From the IMG/VR virus record IMGVR_UViG_3300025326_000222, positions 1 through 22,119 of that record: 22,119 nucleotides of DNA. One strand, 5' to 3'. The translations under genes and the position numbers were made by a program. Shown piece after piece: positions 6,578 through 22,119 of this stretch; within the stretch, counting starts at the first letter, position 1, and each line of letters starts with the position of its first letter. Origin of the DNA: a virus. Below the pieces are notes generated by a model that was not told the DNA's origin, made no database searches, and saw nothing but the letters and a program-made list of their open reading frames with translations.

Positions 6578-9489
6578 TGCCGCGAGAAGCGCCTACTAAT
6601 GTGCCCCGTGGCGTAGGATCGGCCGAGCCTGACTGGTCCCCGCCCAAGGTGGCGGTGGCCACGCCGGGGCTTACTATACAGCCTGAGCCCACTCAGTTTG
6701 AGAAGCTCAGAGCCGCAGTCCTTAGCATCGGTCAAGGAGCCGTGACGGGCCTTCAAGCCCAGGCACAGATTCAGGGGAATCTGGATCGCCTGAGACAGCG
6801 GGCTCTCAACGAATCTGACCAAGCGCTTCGGGGAGCCGAGGAAAGTATCCAGGCAGAGCGCATCAATTCCGTGAAGCGTGATATGCTAGCCATTCAGGTA
6901 GAGGGCGAAGATAAAGGCCCTGCCTGGATGGCACAAACGTCCCGCACCAAACTTGCTAATGCGGCATCGCTGCAAGAGCAGGAGATGTGGACCCGCATGT
7001 ACGTTGCCGCCAGCGGTGCGGCTAAGCAGAATGCCGCTGAGGCAGAGCGCGACCAAGAGATGCGAATCCGCCAGCAGTATGCACTCTCAACGCATACTGC
7101 CCATAACATCGCCTTACAAGCCGAGCAGGAAATTTCCTTACAACCAGAATTGCAGCAGGAACTGATCGGCAGCGGTACGGGTATTCATACGAGAGTGCAG
7201 GATTATCTCCTTGCAGAGATAGTGGCTGCAACGCCTGACGCGCTCATTATCAATAGAGATGATCCAAATGCCGAAGCCCGGAGAACGCAGCGCGACTTGC
7301 TTGTTGCCGCAATCACCGGGTATGGTATGAAGATTTCTGATGGTCTTGTCAATCAGTTCTCCAAAGGAAGAGATCAACTTTCTTTCCAGCGGGGTATCCA
7401 TCAAGTTGATGCTGATTTGTTCGACTTCATGACAAAGGATGGTAATCTCGATCAGTTCATGGAATCTACTGGGGCTACATTCGATGAGAACTTTACCCAC
7501 ATGACTGAACCTGAGAAAGCCGAGACCATGAAGAAGCGTGTCCTCGAAACCATGCAGTTAGCTGCCCAAGGGCAATTCCCTGGCAGGATGGCTAATATGT
7601 TGGAGAGAGGACAAACTTTACTCAACATGGAGATTGATGGACAGCCAGTATTCACTGATGCTGAGAAGGCGGGTCTTGTGGGCACAATGCTTGACGAGTC
7701 CCGCAAGACGGCGCAGGAACGACTGGGGGCTGAGATCGGGGCCTTGCTTCGACAACAGGTAATCCCGCTCTCCGATTCGGAAGGCAATTATACCTTCACC
7801 CCGGACCCGAATGGCCTTAGTACCCTGGCCCAGCCCGGCGTCAACGGTTTATCTGCCATTGACCGGGCTGCCAATAAGGTGCTCATGGATATGGGTTTCC
7901 TCGACAAGTCCCCATCTGACCTTCGGCCCGATGAGAATTTGATCGTAGAATCTGTCATGATTCGGGCCAGTGAGATGCAGAGTTCTGCCCGCTCTCAGGC
8001 CGTAACAGAGTCCCGCAAGGTTCAGAACTATACCGGAGTAATGACCGGAAGACCCGGCGGGAATCTGAATGATGCCTATGATACCGCGCCTCTTACGGCG
8101 GCGTGGGAGGGCCGGGCTGTAACTGCCTCACAGGCGGCGATGAATAAGCGGCTCGTCACGGCCTATGCTTCGGCTCAGGGTGGTATACCAGAGTCGATCC
8201 GGCAGTGGAATGGTGGCACTATCCCGGAGAGTACTCCAGAGAACCGGCCCTTGAGGGATGCCATTCTCGCCGTAGAGGCGCAGCAGTGGACCCGACCCGA
8301 AGTGGCCAAAGAGTATGGACTGCCGAAGGGTATCATTGATCGTATGTTCCGAGAGTTTACATCGGGCGATCCTGAATCCTTCCATGATGCGTTACAATTT
8401 GCTACTCATGTTCGCAGCGGGGCTAAACTCGAAGACTTGATCCAGGCCATGAACGAGAATGGCACGGAGATCGGCGCCGCGCTTCACTATGCAGTGGCGG
8501 CACAGAATGGACTCCTGGGACAGGGAGTAAAGCTAGACGAAGAGACGATTGCACAGAATGTGCAGGCTATCCTCTCGGCGGGCTCTCTGACCAAGTTCCT
8601 TGAGGCCCAGTCGCCATTTGCCACATCAGGCACCGGCTACTCTAATAATCGCATCATCCTTACTTCGGTGATCCAGGCACTTAGAGCAGCCGAACCAAGC
8701 ATGTTCGATCTGGCTGATCCCTTAGCTGAGGTTGATGGGCGCCCTCTTGGCGAGAGAGAAATTGAGGCTATCTTCCGTCAAGGGATGGCCGATGGTAATA
8801 ACATGGTGACGGCAGTGCAGCAAATGGGTGCTTCTATTATGGCTACTCATCCAGATGCGACTGTGGAAACCATGGGTTCTATGCTGTACTCTTATCTCAA
8901 TGCAGTGGGAGTTAGCATGCACCTGATTGGGAATCGGGTTGTCGGTATTGAAGACCCGCAAAAGCATCTTCCTGGTCACTTGAAGGATATCCCTTCCGTG
9001 GCAAGGGAGTGGACTCAGCGGGCCTATGACGCCCCAACCCGCGACCTTATCCAACGTGTAATGGGTATGGACCCGAAAGATGTTCCGGTAAACCTTGCTG
9101 ATTGGTATCAGCGAGCATACCCGGATATCTTTGTAAGCCATACCTGGGATGGTATGAATTGGGACATCTCCAATGGCTTTACCCCGGCTGGTGCCGAATC
9201 TTTGCACCGCCCGGCTTCGGCCCTTGGGGGTTTGCCCATTACGGCCCGGCGTCCTGTTGACGGTACGCCACTGCCGATGATCCGTACCAGGGTTGAGACA
9301 TTCCTGCCTCAACCCGATGGGACCGTCATTCATGTCCCTGCCGGGACACCAATTACTGCGCTTTCACAGCACTACCAACCCGCTCTGCTGGCCGAATCTA
9401 CGGAGAGCCGAAGCAATATGGAAGAGATTCTCTTCCGGGCTGAGGCAGGAGCATTCGCTCCGATTCTCGATAAGCTCTTTGGCCGCTGA
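6577..9489 (+). CDS. Internal virion protein (T7 gp15-like ejection core protein)
   Basis: 970 residues, longer than T7 gp15 (747). It begins with a TAATG overlap, and GGGAGGG at 6564-6570 lies in front. The N-terminal 60 residues are proline-rich. Residues 60-500 are strongly helical, rich in Q, A, E and R, with a clear coiled-coil look (IQGNLDRLRQRALNES, AAEAERDQEMRIRQQYA). The protein contains EPEKAETMKKRVLETM near residue 310 and many helices typical of ejection proteins. I see no signal peptide and no transglycosylase motif. In T7, gp15 and gp16 form a tube across the periplasm during DNA entry. The call is by order, length and composition. Confidence 0.72.
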   Translation: MPREAPTNVPRGVGSAEPDWSPPKVAVATPGLTIQPEPTQFEKLRAAVLSIGQGAVTGLQAQAQIQGNLDRLRQRALNESDQALRGAEESIQAERINSVKRDMLAIQVEGEDKGPAWMAQTSRTKLANAASLQEQEMWTRMYVAASGAAKQNAAEAERDQEMRIRQQYALSTHTAHNIALQAEQEISLQPELQQELIGSGTGIHTRVQDYLLAEIVAATPDALIINRDDPNAEARRTQRDLLVAAITGYGMKISDGLVNQFSKGRDQLSFQRGIHQVDADLFDFMTKDGNLDQFMESTGATFDENFTHMTEPEKAETMKKRVLETMQLAAQGQFPGRMANMLERGQTLLNMEIDGQPVFTDAEKAGLVGTMLDESRKTAQERLGAEIGALLRQQVIPLSDSEGNYTFTPDPNGLSTLAQPGVNGLSAIDRAANKVLMDMGFLDKSPSDLRPDENLIVESVMIRASEMQSSARSQAVTESRKVQNYTGVMTGRPGGNLNDAYDTAPLTAAWEGRAVTASQAAMNKRLVTAYASAQGGIPESIRQWNGGTIPESTPENRPLRDAILAVEAQQWTRPEVAKEYGLPKGIIDRMFREFTSGDPESFHDALQFATHVRSGAKLEDLIQAMNENGTEIGAALHYAVAAQNGLLGQGVKLDEETIAQNVQAILSAGSLTKFLEAQSPFATSGTGYSNNRIILTSVIQALRAAEPSMFDLADPLAEVDGRPLGEREIEAIFRQGMADGNNMVTAVQQMGASIMATHPDATVETMGSMLYSYLNAVGVSMHLIGNRVVGIEDPQKHLPGHLKDIPSVAREWTQRAYDAPTRDLIQRVMGMDPKDVPVNLADWYQRAYPDIFVSHTWDGMNWDISNGFTPAGAESLHRPASALGGLPITARRPVDGTPLPMIRTRVETFLPQPDGTVIHVPAGTPITALSQHYQPALLAESTESRSNMEEILFRAEAGAFAPILDKLFGR

Positions 9490-19673: not shown

Positions 19674-19915
19674 GTATCTGGATAATGGTCCTTGCCCTTA
19701 TCCTGGTGGCCGGGGCGGCAATGGTGGCCTGTGTCCGGGAGGCACGGCCAAGGTGCCCATCTTGCCATAAGCCCCTAGATTGCCTAGCTTGCCTACGGCG
19801 TATACAACTAGGCGGTTTGGCGGAAGATGACAACCCACAATATCATATTCGCCCAGAGGCCCCAAAGGCCCCAGTTTGGTCAGATTCTCCAGATAACCCA
19901 GATGACCCAGATTGA
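19670..19915 (+). CDS. Small membrane or lipoprotein with paired cysteines and a fibre-type motif
   Basis: 81 residues, beginning in an ATGA overlap. Residues 3-20 are hydrophobic and end MVAC21, a weak lipobox, so the protein is either lipid-anchored or has one helix. C29-x2-C32-x5-C38-x2-C41 looks like a small zinc knuckle or disulfide pair. Residues 48-60 (GGLAEDDNPQYHI) resemble the GLTDDDHPQY motif of the fibre-like protein encoded at 1282, also at DNA level (GATGACAACCCACAATA against GATGACCACCCACAGTA). The C-terminus is proline- and aspartate-rich and probably disordered. An o-spanin-like role is conceivable, as these are small proline-rich lipoproteins, but no i-spanin partner is evident. 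Confidence 0.78.
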   Translation: MSIWIMVLALILVAGAAMVACVREARPRCPSCHKPLDCLACLRRIQLGGLAEDDNPQYHIRPEAPKAPVWSDSPDNPDDPD

Positions 19916-19925
19916 CGGCGGGCTT

Positions 19926-19963
19926 GCCCCAGGAGGCCAGGATTAGTTCCTACCTCCTGGGGC
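19926..19963 (+). terminator. Strong hairpin at the end of the late genes, possible terminator
   Basis: GCCCCAGGAGG (19926-19936) pairs perfectly with CCTCCTGGGGC (19953-19963), and AGGA/TCCT (19939-19942 with 19948-19951) extends it inward around a five-base loop. It lies ten bases after the last late gene, the usual place for a terminator. No T tract follows, so it may instead block 3' decay or be processed. Confidence 0.4.
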
Positions 19964-20181
19964 CTGGGTGGAAGCTAGGAACGCCTCCAGGTGGCAATCC
20001 ACTGACGTTCCTATGAGGGTGGTGCTGTGCCGCCCTCGCCGGATGGACCGGTTCGGCTGGGCATGTACCAATCGGGTGAGAAATAGTACATATCTGATTC
20101 TAAATGGAGGGATAGGTAATGTAGGATGATGGGGCAAACTGGGAACATTGGGTATGGCCGGGTACTGAGGTAGATTGGGTA

Positions 20182-20221
20182 ATATTCACTGAATAGGGCA
20201 TCTTCACCGCGCAGTGAATAT
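20182..20221. repeat. Perfect 10-bp inverted repeat
   Basis: ATATTCACTG (20182-20191) and CAGTGAATAT (20212-20221) are exact reverse complements around a 20-base loop. The arms are AT-rich in a GC-rich gap. No T tract follows, so it does not look like a terminator; an operator, cruciform or RNA hairpin are all possible. Confidence 0.75.
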
Positions 20222-20358
20222 CGACTGGGGGTGGTACGCCGGGAGTGAGGGTGCGCCCCGTCCGATAACCATGGAATCCCCCCGTACCCCCCGGTCAAGC
20301 ATTATCGGACCCGGCACGGGCCGCCCCAGGGTGGGTTATTATCGGACTCTCCGCAGGT

Positions 20359-20448
20359 CGCATAGCCTACCCACACGGTACAGGCCCACCTGTTGCCGGG
20401 CGATAACCGGGTGCGGACCTTGACAGGGCAAGGACCGTATGCTATGCG
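20359..20448 (+). other. Branched inverted-repeat element (RNA-junction-like)
   Basis: An outer stem CGCATAGC/GCTATGCG (20359-20366 with 20441-20448) and a second stem ACGGT/ACCGT (20375-20379 with 20434-20438) enclose three small hairpins: ACAGG/CCTGT with a CCCA loop (20380-20393), CCGG/CCGG (20396-20411 area) and CCTTG/CAAGG (20418-20433). The nesting is tidy, as in a multi-way RNA junction, though each small stem could arise by chance. It is not a tRNA: no GTTCRA arm or acceptor pairing fits. Confidence 0.4.
20420..20448 (+). promoter_or_regulatory. Sigma70-type promoter candidate facing the structured region
   Basis: TTGACA (20420-20425, perfect -35) is followed by exactly 17 bases and TATGCG (20443-20448). 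The -10 matches only three of six consensus bases but has an extended TG one base before it (20440-20441). Transcription would start near 20455 and run through the structured region toward the gene at 21443. The same bases belong to the branched inverted-repeat element, so the match could be incidental. Confidence 0.35.
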
Positions 20449-20467
20449 GGGAGGTCGGTCTGTGCGG

Positions 20468-20524
20468 GCGGGCCTGAGGCGGTTATGGGGCCTTTGCCTG
20501 CGTTTTTCTTCGCCTCAGGCTTGC
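20468..20524 (+). repeat. 14-bp hairpin at the 5' end of the structured region
   Basis: GCGGGCCTGAGGCG (20468-20481) pairs with CGCCTCAGGCTTGC (20511-20524), ten perfect pairs plus two G-U and two G-C pairs. The 29-base loop contains TTTTTCTT at 20503-20510. If the transcript starts near 20455, this would be its first hairpin. Confidence 0.75.
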
Positions 20525-20934
20525 ATGCCGTCCACCATATGCCATACTATGTTTGCCTACCATGCGGGGTGACCCGCCGGGAGCACGACGGACGGCCAGT
20601 ACGGGCAGGGACAACGCCAACCTACACCCGGAATGTCGCGAGTCGCCCGGTCACAGGACGGATCGCTAACGTAGGGGCTCGCGGGAGCCGACAACTATAT
20701 CGGACCACCGGGACCGAGCTAAAAACCACCCGAACGGACAACGCGTTGCGTAGTCACGACGGAATGGGAAGGAGCCGGACCCAAGCGGGTAAACGCAGTC
20801 CATTGCACGTCCGATAGAGCGTACTAAGTCAGGGGACGAAAGCTAGCGATGCGGGATATGCAAACGTCGCCGCATAATACTGCTGATAACTAACCTGACG
20901 AGCTAGGCTGAACATGCCACGGAACATCGCCTAA

Positions 20935-21238
20935 GCACACTGTACGATAAGCCCAATCGACTTGACTATGCGGTAAGGTAGACCGTGTGTCAATAGGTTA
21001 GGATCGCAGGAGCTAATAACTCTCAACCGCGAACCGAAGCCGTCCGACTCTCGGCTAAGGGCACGACAAGACTACGTGAGTAGAGCTATACGGCCCGGAT
21101 AAAGGAACCGACGCCCAGCGTGAGCTGTAAGTGTACGATCTGCCGACCACGGCTCAACCGAAACCGCCGTCTATCTTACCGCATAGTCTTGGGAGTCGAT
21201 CCTCTGAGAAGCGGTAAGACCGTAGGGCATAAGTGTGC
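20935..21238 (+). repeat. Long-range arm with a 20-bp helix
   Basis: GACTATGCGGTAAGGTAGAC (20964-20983) pairs with GTCTATCTTACCGCATAGTC (21169-21188): 19 Watson-Crick pairs and one G-U. Across a one-by-five internal loop, ATCGACT (20956-20962) pairs with AGTCGAT (21194-21200). Further out, GCCC/GGGC (20951-20954 with 21225-21228) and GCACACT/AGTGTGC (20935-20941 with 21232-21238) can continue the arm. It encloses a 185-base domain with small hairpins, among them AGCCG/CGGCT (21038-21056), CTAC-GTGA-GTAG (21072-21083), ACGC/GCGT (21111-21121) and GCCG/CGGC (21142-21153). The outer pairs are weaker evidence than the 20-bp core. Confidence 0.85.
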
Positions 21239-21335
21239 GTGGACGCGGAGACAACCGACGTAAACAGATATAACAAACACCGTAGCCGAACGAAACCCTG
21301 ATAGGTGGGCTGTTCGGTCACACTACGGAGATCAC

Positions 21336-21403
21336 GGTCAACCTCCCCGGCCATGAGCGAAAGCTTGTGGCCGGTCTTATAGGTTGGCCAACGTGGTCAA
21401 CCT
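21336..21403 (+). promoter_or_regulatory. Switch-like element: two identical strands competing for one partner
   Basis: GGTCAACCT occurs at 21336-21344 and again at 21395-21403. Between them, AGGTTGGCC (21381-21389) can pair with the first copy (nine pairs, one G-U, enclosing the GAAA-capped 12-bp hairpin at 21347-21374) or, as GGTTGGCCA, with the second (21382-21390 with 21394-21402, nine pairs, three-base loop). The two folds exclude each other. The element ends 40 bases before the start of the 126-aa gene. No T tract follows, so it is not a plain terminator. Confidence 0.55.
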
Positions 21404-21419
21404 ACTTCGCAACAGTACC

Positions 21420-21445
21420 CATATCAATGAAGGAGCATATCAATG
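21420..21445 (+). repeat. 10-bp direct repeat around the ribosome-binding site
   Basis: CATATCAATG occurs at 21420-21429 and 21436-21445, with the Shine-Dalgarno sequence AAGGAG (21430-21435) exactly between. The second copy contains the start codon at 21443. The first supplies another ATG (21427) that opens a nine-codon frame, MKEHINAWY, ending at TGA 21454-21456, overlapping the true start in another frame. Confidence 0.8.
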
Positions 21446-21823
21446 CTTGGTACTGAGAATCCTGTGGTTGTCCCGTCCGTCGAGCACGCAAAGGCTCTCG
21501 CTGGCATCTACGGTCGCCTTCATGGTGCCGTGGCTGCAAGCCGCAAGGCAAGCACTGCTCTCAAGCAGGCTTGGGCAAAGGGTCTTGACGTGGTGGCTGA
21601 TGCCCGTGTCATTCGCACGGGTGCCATGCAGAAGCTCGATCTCATCATGGATGAGTCGTGGACGGCACTGCTCGCTCTGCCTCGCGGCACTACTGCCCGT
21701 GGTGGTGCGACCCCGCAGACGGTTGCCTTGGAGTACTTCTCCAGCAACCTGAACCGTGATCTCAAGGCCCGCATCACTGCCGCGGATGCCCGCAAGATCA
21801 ACGGTCGCTCGTTCGTCGTCTAA
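21443..21823 (+). CDS. Unknown 126-aa protein downstream of the structured region
   Basis: ATG 21443 with AAGGAG seven bases before it. The protein is helical and basic: VEHAKALAGIYGRLHGAVAASRKASTALKQAWAKGL (residues 13-48), then a segment with DLIMDESWTALLAL (66-79) and a short C-terminal helix ending RSFVV. No signal, membrane segment or known motif. Codon choice is biased: all seven lysines are AAG and arginines are CGC or CGT, like the capsid gene end and unlike the terminase, which also uses AGA and AGG. That suggests strong expression. It is the first gene after the gap, so it could be the first early gene of the phage or a partner of the structured RNA; both are inference. Confidence 0.85.
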   Translation: MLGTENPVVVPSVEHAKALAGIYGRLHGAVAASRKASTALKQAWAKGLDVVADARVIRTGAMQKLDLIMDESWTALLALPRGTTARGGATPQTVALEYFSSNLNRDLKARITAADARKINGRSFVV

Positions 21824-21848
21824 TCGGAGACGGCAACCCACCCCGAAT

Positions 21849-21877
21849 GCCCAAAGCTGAAAGGCTTGGGCTTTCAT
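21849..21877 (+). terminator. GAAA-capped hairpin followed by TTTCAT, probable terminator
   Basis: GCCC (21849-21852) pairs with GGGC (21868-21871), and AAGCT/GGCTT (21854-21858 with 21863-21867) continues the stem after one bulged A, closed by GAAA. TTTCATT follows. It lies 26 bases after the 126-aa gene. The T run is short, so termination may be partial. Confidence 0.6.
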
Positions 21878-21879
21878 TC

Positions 21880-21942
21880 CCTTGGTTCCAAGGTACCTAC
21901 ATAATCCGCACGCGGGATTGTGTAATGATATACAGCGTGCGG
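21880..21942. repeat. Two further hairpins in the intergenic leader
   Basis: CCTTGG/CCAAGG (21880-21885 with 21888-21893) is a near palindrome. CCGCACGC/GCGTGCGG (21906-21913 with 21935-21942) pairs perfectly over eight bases; AATCC/GGATT (21903-21907 with 21915-21919) is an alternative using the same bases. Confidence 0.5.
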
Positions 21943-21975
21943 CCACCTACCCTTAGCGGGGTAGGGGCCTTTCAT
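21941..21975 (+). terminator. 11-bp hairpin followed by TTTCAT, possible second terminator
   Basis: GGCC (21941-21944) pairs with GGCC (21966-21969) and CCTACCC (21946-21952) with GGGTAGG (21959-21965), with one bulged A and a six-base loop. TTTCATT follows, exactly as after the hairpin at 21849-21871. Confidence 0.5.
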
Positions 21976-21981
21976 TAGTGT

Positions 21982-22077
21982 CCATCCTTAGATGGCACTG
22001 GGATCGCATTCGCAATCTGTAAATATATGCGGTACGGCCTTAGCCAAAGTCCGCAATGACGAATGCGGTCCTTTCAT
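21982..22077. other. Nested hairpins ending in a third CTTTCAT
   Basis: CCATC-CTTA-GATGG (21982-21995) is a small perfect hairpin. CGCATTCG/CGAATGCG (22005-22012 with 22060-22067) encloses TGCGG/CCGCA (22028-22032 with 22051-22055) and GGC-CTTA-GCC (22036-22045 area). CTTTCAT follows at 22071-22077. No gene is present here. Confidence 0.5.
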
Positions 22078-22099
22078 GTCGGCCCATGCTGGTGCCGAC
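22078..22099 (+). promoter_or_regulatory. Leader hairpin just before the next ribosome-binding site
   Basis: GTCGGCCCA (22078-22086) pairs with TGGTGCCGAC (22090-22099): nine pairs with one bulged T and a three-base loop. It stands 12 bases upstream of the ribosome-binding site at 22111-22117, so it could protect or control the next mRNA. Confidence 0.5.
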
Positions 22100-22110
22100 C
22101 TGTACCCTCA

Positions 22111-22117
22111 TAAGGAG
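22111..22117 (+). promoter_or_regulatory. Ribosome-binding site of a gene starting beyond the window
   Basis: TAAGGAG followed by AT at the window's last bases is the same sequence that precedes the gene at 16046 (TAAGGAGAT). The coding region should begin within a few bases of the right edge. Confidence 0.65.
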
Positions 22118-22119
22118 AT

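Follow-up and report, generated by a model that had tools for sequence, protein, structure and literature searches.

The 20-bp helix described here, P1, probably closes the base of a three-way-junction domain. The domain would belong to a noncoding RNA that is made early and read rightwards at the genome end of an uncultured T7-like phage. We observe the helix itself, the compensatory replacement of its pairs in a relative, invariant sequence motifs and the synteny of the two loci that carry the domain.

Genomic setting

The window (the whole stretch of DNA that was analysed) is a linear fragment in IMG/VR of 22,119 bases. It encodes a T7-like tail protein (phrog_457, E 7.9e-90) and a TerL that matches phrog_38 (terminase large subunit, E 3.1e-86) and also DNA maturase B of T7-like phages. 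The late block ends with a small open frame that stops at 19,915, and no gene is evident in the window from there to 21,442; P1 lies within that noncoding stretch, which has the late genes on one side and a small gene, p126 (21443..21823, + strand), on the other. The 126 codons of p126 encode a small helical protein with two long predicted helices, for which no match was found in Pfam, PHROGs, PDB folds or the phage collection and no relative in genome_contigs. An alignment search of IMG/VR found p126 relatives in five contigs, represented by loci L003 (also L082), L083, L084 (also L001), L002 (also L085) and L086, which with the window make six records; among the collections searched the family has only these six members. 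In all six p126 follows a noncoding region. A T7-type RNA polymerase (PF00940) is present in four of the six, the missing pair being the window and the L002 contig, both of which are fragments. TerL and p126 lie at opposite ends of the L001/L084 contig (42,091 bases), so the noncoding region is the junction of the late and early ends. This location fits expectation for a T7-like genome end, in which case the early genes would begin with p126.

P1 and its replacement in a relative

The two arms of P1, GACTATGCGGTAAGGTAGAC at 20964..20983 and its partner at 21169..21188 (both + strand), are 20 nt long, 95% complementary and separated by 185 nt, and they form 19 Watson-Crick pairs and one G-U pair, exactly as the first-pass annotation had described them in coordinates, pairing and spacing. 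Its statement that such a helix is beyond chance was borne out by shuffling: P1 is the best helix in 20450-21442 among those with arms no more than 400 nt apart (score 19.5), and the best score in 150 dinucleotide shuffles of the same region was 15.0 (mean 10.5, sd 1.2). The sole non-Watson-Crick pair is G20978-U21174 on the + strand, which would be C-A on the - strand, and this lone G-U fits a + strand RNA.

The same annotation had extended the arms outwards by seven further pairs, ATCGACT (20956..20962, + strand) with AGTCGAT (21194..21200, + strand). These are present and correctly nested, the spacers between them and P1 being T and TTGGG, and of 20,000 random placements 72 produced seven such Watson-Crick pairs no more than 6 nt from either arm; the extension occurs in the window only and gains no comparative support, since L003 has no counterpart of it.

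Are the arms of P1 conserved as a pair or merely copied? The contig of L003, a distant relative, has a P1-like helix of 21 bp (20 bp in the window) whose position with respect to two invariant motifs (below) matches that in the window, and both domains are flanked by the gene block that follows TerL and by p126. When the two helices are registered from their inner ends (window arms as above; L003 7169-7188 and 7308-7327), all 20 P1 pairs are kept, of which 14 are changed on both sides, six are the same, none is changed on one side and none is broken. These counts come from a motif-anchored alignment made by hand, because MAFFT misplaced the motifs in the window/L003 alignments as a result of their different linker lengths. 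Replacement of 14 of 20 pairs in step is what selection on pairing predicts, and copied arms would not behave in this way. The earlier suggestion that either selection or a recent duplication-inversion explains the helix is thus narrowed to selection on pairing, and the helix survives the check for a homologue in which one arm is altered alone (0 of 20 in L003): its arms are conserved as pairs, with only six of 20 having the same letters. P1 pairing is well supported by these sequence comparisons, within which only two independent sequences carry the domain. L003 has in addition a second perfect helix, of 23 bp (7931-7953 / 8021-8043), near p126, for which a counterpart was not seen in the window.

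Invariant motifs and the junction that P1 closes

Just inside P1 the window and L003 have two sequences in common, an exact 12-mer CAATAGGTTAGG (window 20991..21002, + strand; L003 7194-7205) and an exact 13-mer CTCAACCGAAACC (window 21153..21165, + strand; L003 7291-7303). They are separated from the helix by 7 and 3 nt in the window and by 5 and 4 nt in L003. A lone match of 12 or 13 letters could be chance at this comparison size; here both lie inside a long helix in two sequences.

The motifs contribute to a common plan that consists of the P1 stem, an internal loop CAATA/GAAACC, the short helix P2 (GGTT/AACC), and two further arms, P3 and P4. The first motif comprises the CAATA side of the internal loop, the 5' strand of P2, a single A and the start of P3, and the second comprises the end of P4, a C, the 3' strand of P2 and the GAAACC side of the loop. 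P2 (20996-20999 / 21156-21159, + strand) is invariant between the window and L003, with predicted pair probabilities of 0.69-0.98. P3 is a hairpin, GGATCGC/GCGAACC (21001-21007 / 21029-21035, + strand), with CTAATAAC in its loop; its pair probabilities are 0.97-1.00 at six of seven positions, it has one A-A mismatch in the window, and one of five compared pairs is compensatory between the window and L003. P4 pairs AGCCG (21038..21042, + strand), which follows the junction GA, with CGGCT (21150..21154, + strand), and is AGTCC/GGACT in L003, where two of the five pairs are changed on both sides relative to the window. In L003 P4 has probabilities of 0.65-1.00 and is the minimum-energy choice, whereas in the window it is a minor state (0.07-0.11) because AGCCG has a competing local hairpin partner there; constraining the window fold to P4 costs 2.1 kcal/mol. 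The junction linkers (A, GA and C) are the same in both sequences, and P1, P2 and P3 agree between their unconstrained folds. The predicted internal loop and junction are thus supported by the comparison. GGTTAG (20996-21001) may also pair with CTAxTAAC (21013-21020) in P3 rather than with AACC, and by eye this alternative is stronger in L003.

Specificity of the domain

The domain was searched for with a descriptor that called for both motifs (no more than 3 mismatches each), starts 40-450 nt apart, and a flanking helix. It gave 76 motif pairs in 238 records totalling 2.23 Mb, the window included (the records include overlapping loci and hence represent fewer genomes). Six of the 76 score at least 19.5, namely four overlapping loci of the L003 contig (L003, L082, L133 and L184) and two copies of the window, and the next-best helix scores 6.0, compared with 19.5 for the window and 21 for L003. 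In a null of 20,000 random flank pairs the 99.9% quantile was 10.0 and the maximum 21.0; the helices themselves, which are part of the pool, would account for that maximum.

Broader searches gave no further copy. L002, L083, L084 and L086 have no motif pair by the descriptor and the domain was not found in them. Among 88 IMG/VR stretches with GRCTCAACCGAAACC, only the L003 contig has the second motif and the helix, and L169 has the motif with 2 mismatches and no helix. The gapped pattern CAATAGGTTAGG-CTAMTAAC occurs in six stretches, five of them without the helix, and in genome_contigs in one stretch without the second motif. A TerL scan of 63 loci gave no additional record with the domain, and the noncoding regions of the window, L003 and L083 have no match in the phage collection.

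Evidence for a different structured RNA before p126 in three relatives

L002 (13655-14405), L083 (425-1180) and L084 (755-1522) have a different covarying RNA at the position before p126. Its consensus structure has 237 pairs, with 93.6% of cells paired, and 35 of the 237 pairs are changed on both sides, compared with 14.1 in shuffles (none of 500 reached 35); these counts lean towards the structure, as there are three sequences, two of them with identical blocks, and the structure comes from the same alignment. When partners were slid, only 2-7 both-side changes were found. Folded as a consensus, the + strand reaches -309 kcal/mol and the - strand -216 kcal/mol, and in the hairpin at columns 705-734 eight of 13 pairs are changed on both sides with all cells paired. 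This strand difference and this hairpin are the strongest points in favour of the predicted RNA. The region thus very likely yields a + strand structured RNA in these three relatives, and because the loci are syntenic the same is likely in the window.

The alignment is a mosaic: L002 and L083 are 100% identical over columns 541-660 (L084 0.56-0.65 there), and L002 and L084 are 93% identical over columns 721-780 (L083 0.61-0.67 there). Such blocks can be read as exchange of RNA modules among the three. The L086 intergenic region folds weakly (z -2.3).

Extent and possible transcription of the window RNA

How much of the noncoding region in the window is structured? Its excess stability over 20630-21440 (z -6.4) is due to P1 and to a pair of long hairpins that lead up to p126 and would form the 3' part of the RNA (21190..21440, + strand), with a folding z of -4.5 (-2.3 on the - strand). 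For the stretch that P1 encloses, stability does not exceed that of shuffles (z +0.46 in the window and +0.18 in L003), nor does it for 20450-20960 in the window (z -0.45). These values support an RNA in the window that consists of P1, its junction and the 3' hairpins, and not one over the whole 1 kb. A single large structured RNA over 20450-21440 was also considered, and the value for 20450-20960 does not support it.

A promoter-like sequence, TTGACA-N17-TATGCG after CGGACC (20420..20448, + strand), is a candidate transcript start. The element CGG[A/T]CCTTGAC lies upstream of the noncoding region in the window, L003, L002, L083 and L084, and in all five a hexamer that starts with TA lies 16-17 nt farther on. 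A sigma-70 consensus scan of the window, L003, L002 and L083 did not list it, so it is a candidate only. That scan found three sites in the window (1.5 expected), and the best match near the domain (10 of 12 letters) is on the opposite strand, from 20993 to 20965. The distance from the candidate promoter to the domain is ~540 nt in the window and ~110 nt in L003. A terminator-like hairpin lies before p126 in L003 (8061-8089) and L002 (14319-14348), so in these two the putative RNA would not simply be a p126 leader; the terminator scan listed no such site in the window from the domain to p126, nor any in L083 on the + strand.

Proposed role of P1 and other explanations

In the reading that we favour, the RNA would be transcribed rightwards from the genome end ahead of the first early gene, p126, would be made early in infection and would act apart from the p126 mRNA. 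P1 would be architectural, about two turns of double-stranded RNA whose length and pairing are kept and whose sequence is free. It would bring the invariant strands CAATAGGTT and AACCGAAACC together to form the conserved internal loop and the junction of P2, P3 and P4, the part that would be recognised by a partner, be it a protein, an RNA or an ion. RNase III may trim the transcript at P1 in addition to this architectural role.

RNase III could also be the main reason for the helix. On this account P1 is chiefly a processing stalk in an early transcript, and a cut there would release the inner domain or free the p126 mRNA. The near-two-turn length kept in the window (20 bp) and L003 (21 bp) while 14 of 20 pairs were replaced, the 23-bp second helix of L003 and the position in a presumed early transcript all agree with it; invariant motifs that adjoin P1 suggest more than a cut site, and we consider this explanation possible though on the whole somewhat unlikely. 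A cis-acting p126 leader that controls translation or termination, possibly as a switch, would account for the presence of p126 after the noncoding region in six of six records, for the occurrence of both alternative partners of GGTTAG (AACC in P2 and CTAxTAAC in P3, by eye) in the window and L003, and for the terminator-like hairpin before p126 in L003 and L002. We judge it unlikely, since the distance between domain and p126 differs greatly (~250 nt in the window and ~815 nt in L003) and p126 is kept in four records that have no domain.

Two further explanations place the function, or the origin, of the repeat in DNA. An inverted repeat near the genome end that serves replication, concatemer resolution or packaging as a cruciform or as a binding site is suggested by its location and by the arrays of boxes in the same region (below). 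But a G-U pair is tolerated, invariant letters fall in predicted loops, a cruciform with a 185-nt loop is itself improbable, the three related RNAs show strand asymmetry, and with only six of 20 P1 pairs the same in L003 there is no sequence-specific DNA site; we regard such a DNA element as very improbable. A near-perfect inverted repeat could also be an inverted duplication or the ends of a mobile element, but L003 has a helix at the same place with its arms replaced in step, no transposase-sized gene lies between the arms, and an exact P1 arm has no match in the IMG/VR viral collection, which together leave this origin hardly credible. Both forms of it, duplication and mobile-element ends, are refuted by the L003 arms, which are not copies, unless the L003 match is fortuitous.

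The architectural reading can be carried further, to a T7-like lineage with a modular noncoding RNA at the genome end whose domains are swapped between phages and which acts in trans as a structural component of a machine for packaging or early infection. This is speculative and we think it quite unlikely; to our knowledge no RNA is known in such a role in T7-like phages.

Comparison with known RNAs

No Rfam family matched anywhere in the window at the gathering threshold, the tRNA, tmRNA, GOLLD, ROOL and phage_pRNA models among them, and at E values up to 10 no family fitted and no GOLLD, ROOL or pRNA was found in the window (19900-22119), L003 (6950-8150) or L083 (400-1180). At the gathering threshold Rfam gives a tRNA and nothing else in L002 and L003; L003 has a tRNA-Glu with anticodon CTC at 6632-6704, 465 nt upstream of the domain. 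By Rfam comparison the P1 domain belongs to neither GOLLD/ROOL nor pRNA.

GOLLD and ROOL are described in PMC12286853 as long structured phage noncoding RNAs, often near tRNAs, with function unknown. On that description our RNA resembles them in being a structured phage RNA and in the nearness of the L003 domain to its tRNA-Glu. It differs in adjoining a T7-like genome end and p126, and its domain plan is unrelated as far as compared. The phi29-type pRNA is another phage RNA near a genome end. It consists of a stem plus a three-way junction, and its primary sequence is very variable while its fold is kept, according to PMC5340915 and PMC12670572. The P1 domain has both features in common with pRNA as so described: the stem that leads to a three-way junction, and the persistence of the fold while the letters change. 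As far as the window, a fragment, shows, its TerL is T7-like rather than of the phi29 type, and a 225-nt domain here lies within a longer presumed transcript. Inspection by eye brought out no pair of complementary interlocking loops of the pRNA kind. RNase III stems are long duplexes around rRNA precursors and in T7 early mRNA. P1 is like these in being a near-perfect duplex of ~20 bp, with length kept and sequence free, in what we presume is an early transcript, and unlike them it encloses a domain with invariant motifs.

Our literature search, in the portions of the sources open to it, turned up no description of an RNA like this one from a T7-like phage. The P1 domain is a comparatively supported RNA domain outside every Rfam family. 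A precise secondary structure can be given for it, along with the nucleotides that are invariant and its niche in T7-like genomes, after the late genes and before the first early gene. As a short, well-bounded domain it would be a simpler object for function tests than ROOL or GOLLD, and the three-member RNA with exchanged blocks in the same niche suggests an intergenic hot spot of RNA evolution.

Boxes and other small elements

All six p126 records have boxes of the kind TTATCGGAC in their noncoding region. The window has two at 20302..20347 (starts at 20302 and 20339, + strand), and each of the other five has the same kind in its homologous region. The box regions are 20260-20347 and 20697 in the window, 5-430 in L083, 210-830 in L084, 13200-13780 in L002, 6745-7057 in L003 and 3700-4890 in L086, and the arrays of L083 and L002 are regular, at 14-15 bp. 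In L003, L083 and L084 the TTGAC element is continuous with the last box (TTCTCGGACC), which might be operator-like.

An exact 13-mer, ATCGACTGGGGGT, is found where the noncoding region begins in the window (20220-20232) and L086 (3623-3635), and occurs also in L182 (L086 contig) and L183; it is possibly a phage promoter or genome-end signal. Finally, a CCTGC-like element followed by at least five T was seen by eye in the box region of several records, at 20496-20512 in the window, ~7035 in L003, ~3870 in L086, ~13350 in L002 and ~615 in L084.
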